This document shows, piece after piece, positions 21,208 through 35,402 of a stretch of DNA of 39,954 bases (position 1 is its first letter; every line of letters starts with the position of its first letter). The notes below the pieces were generated by a model, which saw only the letters and a list, made by a program, of their open reading frames with translations, was not told where the DNA came from and did not search any database. The position numbers were made by a program, and so were the translations under genes. The DNA comes from Desulfuromonadales bacterium (GTDB taxonomy: Bacteria > Desulfobacterota > Desulfuromonadia > Desulfuromonadales > JACZKF01), in NCBI GenBank assembly GCA_029289095.1, contig JARFUG010000029.1:1-39954 (forward strand), given 5' to 3'.

Positions 21208-24045
21208 CTATGACCGGCGCACCTTCGCAGCCTGCAGGCGAAAAGCCTCGCGCACATGCCGGCGCAGTTGATCGTTGTCCCACGGTTTGGTTAAAAGCCT
21301 GTAGATGTCCCCCTCGTTGATCAACTCCATGATCGCCGGCAGGTCGGCATACTCCGAAAGGACCATGTGCACCGTGTCGGGGTGCAGCGCCCTGACCTTC
21401 CTGAGAAATTCTGCCCCCGACATCTCCGGCATCCGCAGATCTGTGACGATCACCTGCACGATGTTCCCGGCAAGCAGATCGAACCCCTCGCGGGCGTTGC
21501 CTGCGGTGAGGACTATGAAATTTTCACCGGCAAAGACGCGCTTCAGAGCGGCAAGGACTTCCGGGTCATCATCCACGACCAGCAGACTCGGAAGCGCCGC
21601 GCGATCCTCGGACATCGCCAGGGACGCGCCCCGGCGATACAACTCGGCAAACTCCCCGGGCGGAAGAGGTTTACTGAAATAAAAGCCCTGCATCTCGTCG
21701 CACCCGTTCTGCCTCAGGTACCCGAGCTGCGCCTCGGTCTCCACCCCCTCTGCCACGACCCTGAGCCTCATGCGATGCGCCAGTGCAATGACCGAGGTGG
21801 AGATCGTCGCGGAGTTCGGGTCGGTGACGATCTCCTGGATGAACGATCTGTCGATTTTCAATTGATCGATGGGAAAACGCCCCAGATATTCCAGACTCGA
21901 ATAACCGGTGCCGAAATCATCCAGCGAGATGCGCACACCGATGCGCCGCAGCGCCTCCATGCGCCTGATCGCCTCCTCGGGGTCGTCCATGAGCATGCTC
22001 TCGGTCAGCTCGAGCATCAGGCGCTCTGGGGGGATTCCGCTTCGCTGCAGCGCAGCCGAAACCTGCGCTTCCAGATCGCCGGTGCGAAACTGCCTCGCCG
22101 ACACGTTGACCGACACGCGGATGTTCTGAAGCCCGGCGTCGCTCCACTCTCGAATCTGGCGGCAGACCTCATCGATGACCCAGTTTCCGATGGGGACGAT
22201 GAGCCCGTTTTTTTCGGACAGGGGGATGAAGTGCAGAGGGGGCACCATCCCCCTGTCCGGGGAGGCCCAGCGCAGCAGGGCTTCGGCGCCCGTGATGCGC
22301 CCGGTTCGCAGATCGACCTTGGGCTGATAGTGCAGGATGAACTCCTCGCGCTCCAGGGCGCGCCGCAGCGCCGACTGGAGTTCGAGGCGCATGCGCGCCT
22401 GCGCGTTGAGCTCCGGAGTGCAGTAACGGAACTGTCCGCCGCCGCGCTCCTTGGCCAGGTTGACGGCCGCATCGGCGCCATGCAGCAGTTCGCGTGCGGC
22501 GCCGCCGTCCTGCGGGAAGATGCTGATGCCGAAACTCGCCCGAAGAACGACCCGCTCTGTGTCCTGGAGAGAAAAGGGTTCTTCGAGAACCGACTGAAGG
22601 TTTCGGACCACCACGTCCACGGACGAGAGATCTTTGATCCCCTCGAGCATGAAGGCGAAGCGGTCCCCGGACAGGCGCGACAGCGCATCTTCGACCCGCA
22701 CCCTCCCCCGCAATCGCCGGGCAACCGCAACCAGCAGATCGTCCCCCGCCTTGTGGCCGAATGTTTCGTTGACGGCCTTGAACTGATCGAAATCCAGGAC
22801 GAGCAGCGCCACCTGTTTCCCCTTGCGGCGGGCGCGCTCCAGGGCATGCTCCACCATCGATTCGAAGAGCTGTCGCCTGGGCAGATCGGTCAACGCGTCG
22901 TGGTTGGCCAGACGCTGCAGCCTCTCTTCGCTCTTTTTCAGACGGGTGAGGTCGGTGATCACCCCTACAAAATGCGTCGCCTCCCCTGCACAGTTGCGGA
23001 CCGCGCTCAGCGTGAGCCATCCCGGAAAGGTCTCTGCGCTCCTTCGCCGCCCCCAGAACTCCCCCTGCCAAAAACCCTCCTTCCCCAACGAGGTCCAGAT
23101 CTCCGCATAGGAACCCCGCTCCTGTCGACTGGAGAAGAGAAGACGGGGATGGGCTCCCAGAATCTCACTTTCGCTATAGCCGGTCATTCCAGAAAAGGCC
23201 GGATTGACCGAGAGAACGCGGGGTGTCCGGTCGACGATGAGGACGGCGTCGCGGGTGCTCATCAGCGCCGCCGCATCGAGCCTGATGCGCTCTTCGGCCC
23301 GGCGCTTGTCGGTCACGTCGTGGGCGACGGCGATCCTGGCGCTTCGTCCGGCGAACTCGATATTGTTGGCATAAATCTCCACCTCGATCAGGCTGCCGTC
23401 CTTGCGCCGGTGAAGCGTCGGAAGGCGATCGACCTCCTCGCGGCTCACCGCATCGAGCAACTCCTGCTTTGACCCATGGGGTTTGATGTCTTCGACGGTC
23501 AGTAAAAGAAACTCTTCACGGCTATATCCGTAATGTCGAACGGCGGCGTCATTGACGGCGAGGAAGCGCAGCGTCTCCATATCGAAGATCCACATCGGGA
23601 GGGGATTGGCCTCGAACAGGAGGCGATAGTGCCTTTCGCTCTCTCGCAGGAGGATTTCCGATTCCCTGCGCGCCGTGATGTCCTGGATGAAGGCGACCCC
23701 GCAGGGGCCTTCGTCCGCATCGACGATCCACGCACCGGAGACAAGCCCACAGACGACTTTCCCGCTCTTGTGCAGGTAGCGCTTTTCATAGCTAAAAGGA
23801 GTCTCCTCCCCAACTCCCGCCTTTCGAAACTGCGCCTCGGTGAACGCCCGGTCCTCCGGGTGGGTGAGGTCGAAAAGGTTCAAAGAGAGAAGTTCCGCCT
23901 CGGTGTACCCCAAAAAGTCGCACAAGGTGCGGTTGAAGAGCACTAAGGCGCCGTCCGGACGTACGACCCCCATGGCGACGGAGGAATGGTTGAAGAGCGT
24001 CTGAAAGAGGGCGCGCCGCTGCTCACTGGTGAACGACCGTGACAC
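21208..24045 (-). CDS. PAS-PAS-PAS-GGDEF(degenerate)-EAL-REC c-di-GMP protein
   Basis: A 945-aa cytoplasmic protein. Three PAS domains fill about residues 8-370. A GGDEF-type domain (~380-540) has the signature altered to SGDRF (459-463), which should abolish cyclase activity. An RVED (450-453), five residues before it, matches the inhibitory I-site RxxD. The EAL domain (~560-805) keeps AEALLRW (Glu588), NVSARQF, ELTESM, DDFGTGYSSL and AEGVET, so phosphodiesterase activity is expected. A C-terminal receiver follows (Asp869 in VTDLRMPEMSG, Lys920). A GTG start at 24045 with GGAG just upstream is chosen; the open frame to 24183 passes through the riboswitch terminator and cannot be coding. It is controlled by the c-di-GMP riboswitch at 24209-24288. 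Confidence 0.88.
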   Translation of the reverse strand: MSRSFTSEQRRALFQTLFNHSSVAMGVVRPDGALVLFNRTLCDFLGYTEAELLSLNLFDLTHPEDRAFTEAQFRKAGVGEETPFSYEKRYLHKSGKVVCGLVSGAWIVDADEGPCGVAFIQDITARRESEILLRESERHYRLLFEANPLPMWIFDMETLRFLAVNDAAVRHYGYSREEFLLLTVEDIKPHGSKQELLDAVSREEVDRLPTLHRRKDGSLIEVEIYANNIEFAGRSARIAVAHDVTDKRRAEERIRLDAAALMSTRDAVLIVDRTPRVLSVNPAFSGMTGYSESEILGAHPRLLFSSRQERGSYAEIWTSLGKEGFWQGEFWGRRRSAETFPGWLTLSAVRNCAGEATHFVGVITDLTRLKKSEERLQRLANHDALTDLPRRQLFESMVEHALERARRKGKQVALLVLDFDQFKAVNETFGHKAGDDLLVAVARRLRGRVRVEDALSRLSGDRFAFMLEGIKDLSSVDVVVRNLQSVLEEPFSLQDTERVVLRASFGISIFPQDGGAARELLHGADAAVNLAKERGGGQFRYCTPELNAQARMRLELQSALRRALEREEFILHYQPKVDLRTGRITGAEALLRWASPDRGMVPPLHFIPLSEKNGLIVPIGNWVIDEVCRQIREWSDAGLQNIRVSVNVSARQFRTGDLEAQVSAALQRSGIPPERLMLELTESMLMDDPEEAIRRMEALRRIGVRISLDDFGTGYSSLEYLGRFPIDQLKIDRSFIQEIVTDPNSATISTSVIALAHRMRLRVVAEGVETEAQLGYLRQNGCDEMQGFYFSKPLPPGEFAELYRRGASLAMSEDRAALPSLLVVDDDPEVLAALKRVFAGENFIVLTAGNAREGFDLLAGNIVQVIVTDLRMPEMSGAEFLRKVRALHPDTVHMVLSEYADLPAIMELINEGDIYRLLTKPWDNDQLRRHVREAFRLQAAKVRRS

Positions 24046-24140
24046 GAAGGCTCCGCTGTTCGAGTTGGAGGGAGCAGCGCCTGCAAAAAAAACATTGCGG
24101 CACTTCGGTGCGGGGCAGAAAAAGAGAGATTCCGGGAAAG

Positions 24141-24160
24141 TAAAAACCCCTCTTCGGGGT
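24141..24160 (-). terminator. Riboswitch expression-platform terminator
   Basis: On the minus strand, ACCCC-GAAGA-GGGGT is followed by four further T's (five counting the last stem base). The hairpin lies between the GEMM aptamer and the GTG start of the PAS-EAL gene, the place of a riboswitch terminator. The stem is short (5 bp) but all G/C plus one A/T. It could also end readthrough from the lipoprotein gene 300 nt upstream. Confidence 0.65.
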
Positions 24161-24208
24161 GAAGACGGGCTTACGCGCTCCATACGGTGCGATAGAGCAA
24201 GGACCTTC

Positions 24209-24288
24209 TCTTCGGCAACCCGGCTGTCCCTGGAGGACCCGTGGCTTTGCGTCCCTGGGTTGCCCCAGGTTTGCGATTATCGGAGACG
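24209..24288 (-). promoter_or_regulatory. Cyclic-di-GMP-I (GEMM-I) riboswitch aptamer
   Basis: The minus strand reads the GEMM-I core in order: CGCAAACC, a 6-bp stem CCTGGG/CCCAGG capped by a GCAA tetraloop, GGACGCAAAGCC, the second stem (CACGGGTCC ... GGGACAGCC), and GGGTTGCCG. The base directly before CAAACC (position 20 in Vc2 numbering) is G at 24274, the guanine-specific form; the cGAMP-selective variants of Geobacter carry A there. The conserved A47 and C92 equivalents are present. It precedes a c-di-GMP phosphodiesterase-type gene on the same strand and is followed by a terminator. Confidence 0.93.
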
Positions 24289-24348
24289 GAAAAAGATGTG
24301 TGTATTTATCAAACCTGCATACAAAAACATCTCCAGCAGATCGCGTAT

Positions 24349-24378
24349 ACAGTAGTACAGCTTTTGAATGCGCGTCAA
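24349..24378 (-). promoter_or_regulatory. Possible promoter of the riboswitch transcript
   Basis: On the minus strand TTGACG (24378-24373) is followed after 18 nt by TACTGT (24354-24349), about 60 nt before the aptamer. A TATAC lies slightly further on. Suggestive only. Confidence 0.35.
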
Positions 24379-24464
24379 GTAAAACAAAGTTTTCCGCTCA
24401 GCAATTCCGCGACCGACTCCACACGCCCATCCGGGATTATCTCGCGCCCGCAGAATCCCGCAGA

Positions 24465-25064
24465 TCACTGCAGCGCCCGCAGATTTCGGAGCTGGATCTC
24501 TGCGGTCTCGATCCCCCTCTTCGCCCCGTCATGAGCGTCGTGAAAGACGAGAATCTTCTTCCAGGTATCGATGGCCGCCGGAAGATTTCCGCCCCGGTAA
24601 TCGGCCAGCCCCCTCGACATGAGGCGCTCGGCACAGATCTCCAGGCGTTCGAGAAGATCGTGACGGGCGATCCCGATCATCGCCGCCGTCTTGCGTTCGC
24701 TCGGATAATGCGTCAGAAGAGCGCGCAGCACCCGACCGCATCGATCGTATTCCCCCGCTTCGAAGAGCTTCTCTCCCGCGGCGGCGAGTCCTCGAAGCGC
24801 CTGGATGTACTCCTCCTCGAATGCCTCTTCTAAACCTCTGCGGCGCCGCTCCTGCGCGATCACCTCGAGTGCCGCCTCGCTCCGGCCTGCGCGCAGATGA
24901 GCGGCAATCTGCGACGCGGCCTCTTCGCGCGCAGGAACCGCTGTCTTCGCCGTGGGAGTAGTCGAAACTGGAGGTGGGGGCGGCGGGGCCAGGGTGGGGG
25001 GGGCGGGAGCGCAGGCGGCCAGGACCAAGGTCGCCAGAAGGGCCGAAAGGATGTTCTTTTTCAT
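24465..25064 (-). CDS. Lipoprotein with TPR-like helical repeats
   Basis: A 199-aa lipoprotein. The signal peptide ends in the lipobox LAAC (Cys18), then comes a Pro/Thr-rich linker (PPTLAPPPPPPVSTTPT). The remaining ~150 residues are all-helical with TPR-like spacing (AAHLRAGRSEAALEVIAQE, LFEAGEYDRCGRVLRALLTHYP, GLADYRGGNLPAAIDTWKKIL). It probably sits in the periplasm anchored to a membrane and makes protein contacts; no enzyme motif is present. Its ATG overlaps the stop of the HD-GYP gene by 4 nt (ATGA), so the two are coupled. Such pairs often combine a periplasmic partner with a membrane-bound signalling enzyme, which would fit here. Confidence 0.82.
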   Translation of the reverse strand: MKKNILSALLATLVLAACAPAPPTLAPPPPPPVSTTPTAKTAVPAREEAASQIAAHLRAGRSEAALEVIAQERRRRGLEEAFEEEYIQALRGLAAAGEKLFEAGEYDRCGRVLRALLTHYPSERKTAAMIGIARHDLLERLEICAERLMSRGLADYRGGNLPAAIDTWKKILVFHDAHDGAKRGIETAEIQLRNLRALQ

Positions 25065-26925: not shown

Positions 26926-27885
26926 CTATCTCTTCGCCCACTTACCCACCTGGATATTGACAACCTGCGGCGGGATCGTTTCGGCAGGGACGTACTCCGC
27001 GAACTTCACCCGCAGGTGCTCGAGGAGCGAACCCTCCCCTTCGCGCAGGATGACGTCTGCGATGCGGATCCTTCCGAGCCCTTTCGCCTTTTCGCCATAC
27101 CAGGCGAGGACCTCCTGGAGAAATTCCACGACCTTTTCGGCCGGCAGGAACAGAGCGAACATCGTCCCGAGAGTCGGCTTATGCCCCCCCTTCCCGCCGA
27201 TACGCACAAGGTATCCGCTCTTGCCCGCCGTCCACGCCTCGGTGGGACAGACCTTGATGCAGTCGCCGCAGTAGATGCAGTTCTCGGAGAAAAAGACCGG
27301 CTTGTTCCCCGCCCCCATTTCGATGGCCGCATGGCCGCACGCCTTGGCGCAGAGCCCGCAACTGATGCACCCGCCGAGATCGAGCGCAGGATAAACGACC
27401 CCCTGGAATCCAACGTCGTTCATGTTCGACTTGAAACAGTCGATGGGGCATCCCGAGAAGCTTATCTTGAACTTGTGATGTCCCGTCGGAGTGCTGAAGA
27501 GCTTCTCGTCGACCTCCAGGGCCGAGGCCTGCGCGTCCATCAGGCCGTTGGGGTTGTACTCACACCCGCCGCAGGCCGTCGGCACGCGCACCCTCGCCCC
27601 GCATGAGGCGACCTTCTGCCCAGCCTCGGCCAGCTCGGAGACGATGCCGTCGAAATCGTTGATGTGGACGTGGACCATCTCGACCGACTGGCGCACGGAG
27701 AGATGGATATTCTCGATGCCGTACTTTTGCGCGACTTCGGCAATCTTCTTCATCCGGGCGGCGGGGAGGCGTCCGCCGGGGACGCGCAGGCGCACGGTGA
27801 AGAGGTCCTTCTGCCGCTCCTTGATGAAGCCGCCCGACTTGAGGTTTTCCAGATCGATAGCCGTTTTTGCATTCTTTTCCGTCAC
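26926..27885 (-). CDS. Siroheme/4Fe-4S sulfite-reductase-like protein with ferredoxin domain (copy 2)
   Basis: A 319-aa protein related to small sulfite/nitrite reductases. The N-terminal ferredoxin-like half (DLFTVRLRVPGGRL, HLSVRQSVEMVHV) is followed by a cluster region with Cys105/Cys108 (ACGGCEYNPNG) and Cys146/Cys150 (GCPIDC). Two inserted 4Fe-4S motifs follow: CISCGLCAKAC and CIYCGDCIKVCP. Expected role: six-electron reduction of sulfite to sulfide in the cytoplasm. It aligns without gaps to the second copy at 28331 over ~220 residues. The start is GTG at 27885 with AGGAG upstream; this matches the paralogue's N-terminus, whereas the ATG at 27933 would add unrelated residues. It is last in the hcy/sir operon. 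A non-sulfite substrate cannot be excluded. Confidence 0.83.
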   Translation of the reverse strand: MTEKNAKTAIDLENLKSGGFIKERQKDLFTVRLRVPGGRLPAARMKKIAEVAQKYGIENIHLSVRQSVEMVHVHINDFDGIVSELAEAGQKVASCGARVRVPTACGGCEYNPNGLMDAQASALEVDEKLFSTPTGHHKFKISFSGCPIDCFKSNMNDVGFQGVVYPALDLGGCISCGLCAKACGHAAIEMGAGNKPVFFSENCIYCGDCIKVCPTEAWTAGKSGYLVRIGGKGGHKPTLGTMFALFLPAEKVVEFLQEVLAWYGEKAKGLGRIRIADVILREGEGSLLEHLRVKFAEYVPAETIPPQVVNIQVGKWAKR

Positions 27886-32602: not shown

Positions 32603-32740
32603 CTGTCCGTATCAAGAGTGGTGGAGGGACTGGCCCTGTGAAACCACAGCAACCGGCCTGCCGTCGCCGTAAAGGCGAAGGCAAGAGTGTCAGGTGCTAA
32701 TTCCAGCTCCGGCAAATTGTCCGGGGGAAGATGAGGACGG
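32603..32740 (+). promoter_or_regulatory. SAM-I (S-box) riboswitch upstream of metI/metC-like genes
   Basis: The S-box core is complete: ATCAAGAGTGGTGGAGGGAC, TGGCCCTGTGAAACCACAGCAACC, GTGTCAGGTGCTAATTCC, and the 3' P1 strand GATGAGGACGG (32730-32740) pairing with 32603-32613. GATGAG can alternatively pair with CTCATC in the terminator's 5' arm (32790-32795), a ready antiterminator. SAM binding would free the terminator and switch the two downstream PLP genes off. Confidence 0.95.
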
Positions 32741-35273: not shown

Positions 35274-35402
35274 CGTCTTTATCAAGAGTGGTGGAGGGAT
35301 AAGGCCCTGTGAAACCACAGCAACCGGTTCGCCTTCGCTCAATGCTACGGCGGACGTCAGGTGCTAATTCCTACCCTGCCTCGGCGGGGAGAGATGAGGA
35401 CG
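35274..35402 (+). promoter_or_regulatory. SAM-I (S-box) riboswitch upstream of metX
   Basis: A second complete S-box: ATCAAGAGTGGTGGAGGG, GGCCCTGTGAAACCACAGCAACC, GACGTCAGGTGCTAATTCC, GAGATGAGGACGG. P1 is a 10-bp helix (35274-35283 with 35393-35402, two G-U pairs). It is very like the copy at 32603, differing mainly in P3 and P4, which suggests duplication or strong constraint. Confidence 0.95.

Follow-up and report, generated by a model that had tools for sequence, protein, structure and literature searches.

A GEMM-I riboswitch with C at the ligand-selectivity position upstream of a predicted c-di-GMP phosphodiesterase gene in a Desulfuromonadales genome

GEMM-I riboswitch types and the pocket of the window aptamer

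The closest described relatives of the element analysed here are the riboswitches of the GEMM-I (c-di-GMP-I) clan. Vc2, the type case of RF01051, has the pocket bases G20, A47 and C92, whereas the GEMM-Ib (3',3'-cGAMP) riboswitch of Geobacter, the best-studied case of which (pilM) is an ON switch, has A20. The consensus of RF03167 (c-di-GMP-I-GGC) is G20/G47/C92, and that of RF03168 (c-di-GMP-I-UAU) is U20/A47/U92. Position 20 is a known ligand-selectivity position (PMC9262584, PMC6274999), and its base serves to separate c-di-GMP riboswitches from those for cGAMP. In the aptamers of V. cholerae, U at this position weakens c-di-GMP binding (Vc1) or abolishes it (Vc2) (PMC4744006). Class I OFF switches are found in C. 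difficile (PMC6366702). In Cd1, an OFF switch of that species, a G occupies the place of G20, the ligand-stabilised P1 helix frees the terminator, and the regulated genes are flagellar. c-di-GMP riboswitches have been described as rarely controlling the genes of c-di-GMP metabolism (PMC6366702).

The window, that is, the whole stretch of 39,954 nucleotides that was analysed, contains a GEMM-I aptamer on the minus strand (24284-24210). In an Rfam search of the whole window it scored 65.1 bits (E-value 2.5e-13) against RF03167, its best match in the clan, where the cut-off is 59. Against RF01051 it scored 67.9 bits, far above the cut-off of 35; these curated covariance-model cut-offs place it in clan CL00126. 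When it was aligned with about 12 relatives, 8 of the 19 pairs in helices P2 and P3 were altered on both sides with the pairing kept. The aptamer is a real GEMM-I element, and the match is far beyond chance. It is followed on the minus strand by a linker hairpin, a terminator (24172-24144), a GGAG/GTG start (GTG at 24045-24043) and the gene of a 945-aa protein. The initial annotation had described the aptamer, terminator and GTG in this order and had proposed a scan with the c-di-GMP-I model; the order was recovered, and the RF01051 score agrees with its assignment.

The same annotation had read position 20 as G, and here it erred: the base, 24275 on the minus strand (column 17 of the alignment of relatives), is C. 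Counted as in Vc2, G20 immediately precedes G21-C22-A23-A24-A25 on the 5' side, and G21 and C22 are paired to C46 and G45, respectively. The window has ...GAUAAU-C-GCAAACC... at this place, and the G that follows C20 is G21 of the P2 helix. An alignment slip as the origin of C20 was rejected, since the G21-C46 and C22-G45 pairs fix the register; the 12 relatives are also free of gaps there. The two other pocket bases, A47 (24248) and C92 (24215), are the standard letters, and all the remaining conserved positions and helices of the aptamer are intact.

The pocket C20/A47/C92 thus differs from each of the described types. The window aptamer shares with Vc2 the whole fold, A47, C92, a GNRA-type P2 loop and a terminator-type platform, but has C in place of G20. 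With the Geobacter cGAMP riboswitch it shares the fold, A47 and C92, but not A20. Although RF03167 is its best match, two of the three GGC letters are replaced (C20 and A47), and compared with RF03168 it has C20 and C92 in place of U20 and U92. C20 cannot make the ligand contact of G20, and, given that U20 weakens or abolishes c-di-GMP binding, the affinity could be poor. In the freely accessible literature searched, no paper was found that describes a C20 aptamer from nature or measures binding to a G20C mutant.

The regulated gene and its neighbours

The gene behind the riboswitch (21208-24045, minus strand) encodes a protein of 945 aa with a PAS-PAS-PAS-GGDEF-EAL-REC architecture, as determined by Pfam and by alignment with the MorA structure 4rnh. 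The GTG codon at 24045-24043, which lies about 100 nt beyond the terminator, is a plausible start; it is preceded by a GGAG site resembling a ribosome-binding site (24054-24051), and the choice of both follows from their position past the terminator. The longest ORF in this frame opens at 24183, within the leader.

Pfam places the GGDEF domain at 22908-22438, the EAL domain at 22371-21667 and the REC domain at 21582-21253, all on the minus strand. About 430 GGDEF-EAL residues could be aligned with MorA, the EAL domain over its full length, and all the EAL catalytic motifs (EAL, N, E, DD, K, E, Q) are present. This agrees with the intact EAL site and the domain order given in the initial annotation, which did not mention that the GGDEF motif is degenerate. 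It reads SGDRF instead of the GG(D/E)EF of active diguanylate cyclases, and the domain is presumably inactive; this motif and the C-terminal REC domain distinguish the protein from MorA. The gene product is therefore a predicted c-di-GMP phosphodiesterase. As metabolic genes are rare targets of c-di-GMP riboswitches, this target is of some interest.

Two genes lie upstream on the same strand. The first encodes an sCache-HAMP-HD-GYP protein (26443-25061) with HD, HHE and NGQGYP motifs, in keeping with the HD-GYP neighbour noted earlier. The second, a lipoprotein-like gene without a family hit (24465-25064), overlaps it by 4 nt. Because of this overlap, and because no terminator preceding the riboswitch was detected in the scan of 23950-24500, read-through from these two genes may also feed the riboswitch. 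A promoter for the element is presumed; the only site in a sigma-70 promoter scan overlaps the aptamer and was not credited.

Among about 30 best loci in the order, no orthologue of the EAL gene with a riboswitch was found. The closest orthologue (L118, 57% identity) has a GGDEF gene in front, and the aptamer is absent.

Distribution of C20 and the nature of the ligand

The genome contains nine GEMM-I copies: seven have G20, one (L009) has A20, and C20 occurs in the window copy only. Across the order, a strict core pattern revealed G at position 20 in 130 cases, A in 47, C in four and T in none (136 genomes). When about 85,000 species genomes were scanned, 74 contigs proved to contain the C20 core, and inspection by eye indicated a full downstream aptamer with A47 and C92 in nearly all of them. 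All 16 C20 loci run through Rfam (13 of the 74 contigs and three loci from the order) pass the gathering thresholds; for some of the other C20 aptamers, RF03168 is the best match. A chance origin of the pattern hits was rejected, most of them carrying a complete downstream aptamer, and a few (e.g., L063, L067, L095 and L109) resemble chance matches. The C20 aptamers cluster in Burkholderiales, Actinoplanes, Paenibacillaceae, Omnitrophota and Geobacteraceae. C20/A47/C92 is a rare, recurrent pocket genotype across phyla and not simple decay. This conserved natural third state of position 20 is unnamed in Rfam and lies outside the usual G/A rule, so that ligand calls based on G or A omit a group of switches.

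In Burkholderiaceae/Sphaerotilaceae, a conserved GEMM-I aptamer (L044, L045, L052, L054, L104, L164 and L165, among others) precedes one family of secreted peptidases, which we take to be S8-like from their sequence. Of 24 such peptidases placed on a tree, 22 have a C20 aptamer (e.g., L074 and L104); the other two have a G20 aptamer (L164 and L165) and make up a single clade. The other GEMM-I copies in the family of these hosts (201 genomes) comprise 21 with G20 and none with A20 or T20. C20 and G20 thus serve one regulatory place, which suggests that the C20 aptamers still answer c-di-GMP; the two forms before the same gene constitute a ready natural experiment. Inhella crocodyli is a C20 species with no further GEMM-I copy of the strict pattern, and of its 49 readable GGDEF motifs, 48 are D-type, one is N-type and none is of the Ser/Thr (cGAMP) type, so that in this species c-di-GMP is the obvious ligand. 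The neighbouring base also differs: G19 stands beside C20 in 1 of 81 rows and beside G20 in 26 of 53 (fetched loci L039-L116 and L172-L176, the rows being phylogenetically related). This near absence hints at a locally adapted pocket, with the reservation that the rows are not independent.

On these grounds, the window aptamer most likely still senses c-di-GMP, perhaps with a lower affinity or a less strict selectivity. The initial annotation had also named c-di-GMP; its argument from G20 fell with the base, and this ligand is now inferred from the orthologous riboswitches in which C20 and G20 replace each other.

A bolder proposal, which we make only tentatively, is that C20/A47/C92 marks a third specificity within GEMM-I that occurs in nature, the ligand being cGAMP, either of the two dinucleotides, or c-di-GMP bound by a protonated and hence pH-dependent C+:G contact. 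If this were true, the bacterium would lose a c-di-GMP phosphodiesterase in response to a different signal, or to acidity. Somewhat less probable, in our estimation, is that C20 has changed or relaxed the specificity of the window aptamer itself so that its signal is 3',3'-cGAMP, or either of the two dinucleotides, one messenger controlling the destroyer of another. The change does fall on the established selectivity position, and, by base-pairing chemistry, a neutral C could pair with A on its Hoogsteen face, and a protonated C with G. Besides c-di-GMP, another ligand probably exists in this genome. Two GGDEF hits carry Ser at the cGAMP (Hypr) signature position and are predicted cGAMP-type synthases: L187 (GHLAGS, G000:C5:27361-27819, minus strand), with an intact GGDEF motif, and L192 (GYRAGS, G000:C1:6016-6291, plus strand), a partial hit. 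The A20 aptamer L009 (1501-1575, plus strand; G000:C7:101533-101607), which has the same platform, is of the cGAMP type. cGAMP is a possible ligand of the window aptamer because of these synthases and this aptamer; however, in Burkholderiaceae C20 alternates before the same gene with G20 and was not seen to do so with A20, and the C20 host I. crocodyli lacks Ser/Thr-type motifs among those readable.

Two further observations concern the paralogous copies. The A20 aptamer L009 sits upstream of a LuxR-type response regulator gene, and L006 and L008 (G000:C134:27342-27441 and 27100-27204, minus strand) are two GEMM-I aptamers that stand in tandem ahead of the gene of a single large secreted protein.

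Expression platform and the predicted direction of switching

The intrinsic terminator T1 (24172-24144, minus strand) has the stem AAGCCC.UCUUC / GAAGA.GGGGUU, a hairpin energy of -15.6 kcal/mol and a T-rich tail reaching 24137. RNA folding assigns the outer part of the P1 5' strand to 24284-24290 (CCGUCU at 24289-24284) and the P1 3' strand to 24204-24215 (CCGAAGAG at 24215-24208), both on the minus strand; the latter is an alternative partner of the 5' half of T1, with which it forms the antiterminator (GAAGA at 24213-24209 with UCUUC at 24165-24161). Two strings occur twice each: CCGUCU is shared by the P1 5' strand and the T1 5' half (24168-24163), and CCGAAGAG by the P1 3' strand and the T1 3' half. 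As a result of these duplications, the P1 3' strand and the T1 5' half each have two partners.

Folding of growing transcripts gave the antiterminator a probability of about 0.9 in the unliganded state once the T1 5' half had emerged, and of about 0.01 once P1 was stabilised, the ligand being modelled as an 8 kcal/mol stabilisation of P1. When the platform was shuffled with dinucleotide composition kept, 16 of 500 sequences had an antiterminator as strong. Of the eight remaining copies in the genome, five (L002, L003, L004, L006 and L009) have the same pairing; in two of these, L002 and L004, the stabilisation assumed for the ligand was too small to displace it. P1, the antiterminator and the terminator are predicted to be mutually exclusive, the arrangement expected of an OFF switch, and the layout predicts, as far as folding goes, that the ligand stops the phosphodiesterase gene. 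In this it would resemble Cd1, whose target and pocket base are different, and would differ from the pilM riboswitch. In equilibrium folding of the full-length leader, the terminator was favoured both with and without ligand; the switching must therefore be kinetic. A second, weak hairpin (GCAC-CGAA-GUGC, about 24111-24088, minus strand), followed a few nucleotides later by U8, is a possible second terminator.

The explanation that we favour, with about even confidence in the whole of it, is that a C20/A47/C92 GEMM-I switch controls the PAS-GGDEF-EAL-REC phosphodiesterase gene by transcription termination, still sensing c-di-GMP and turning the gene off. Without ligand, the CCGAAGAG strand of P1 would pair with the 5' half of T1, the terminator would be delayed and the gene would be read. 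With ligand, this strand would be held in P1, the terminator would form immediately and the gene would be off. If the ligand is c-di-GMP, a high level of it would shut off one of its own degraders, giving a double-negative and hence positive, latching loop. A feedback loop, as suggested in the initial annotation, is then possible, but simple homeostasis is not what the layout predicts.

The opposite direction, in which the ligand raises read-through or acts on translation and the enzyme is induced by its own substrate (negative feedback), appears distinctly unlikely. Class I switches do act in both directions (PMC6366702, PMC9262584), and in the equilibrium model the full-length terminator forms whatever the ligand state. 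However, T1 can form its entire hairpin independently of the P1 strand, the P1 3' strand resembles the T1 3' half and competes with it as an antiterminator, and the same layout recurs in the paralogous copies of the genome. Least probable of all is that the window holds a decaying copy, with C20 a loss-of-function mutation and T1 a constitutive attenuator: the absence of the element from the orthologous genes examined in the order and the restriction of C20 to this one copy in its genome would fit, but the aptamer is otherwise unimpaired at its conserved positions and helices, the platform retains the antiterminator pairing, and C20 has been kept elsewhere over long divergence.

The window also contains two SAM-I riboswitches on the plus strand, at 32606-32737 (81.6 bits) and 35276-35400 (79.7 bits).
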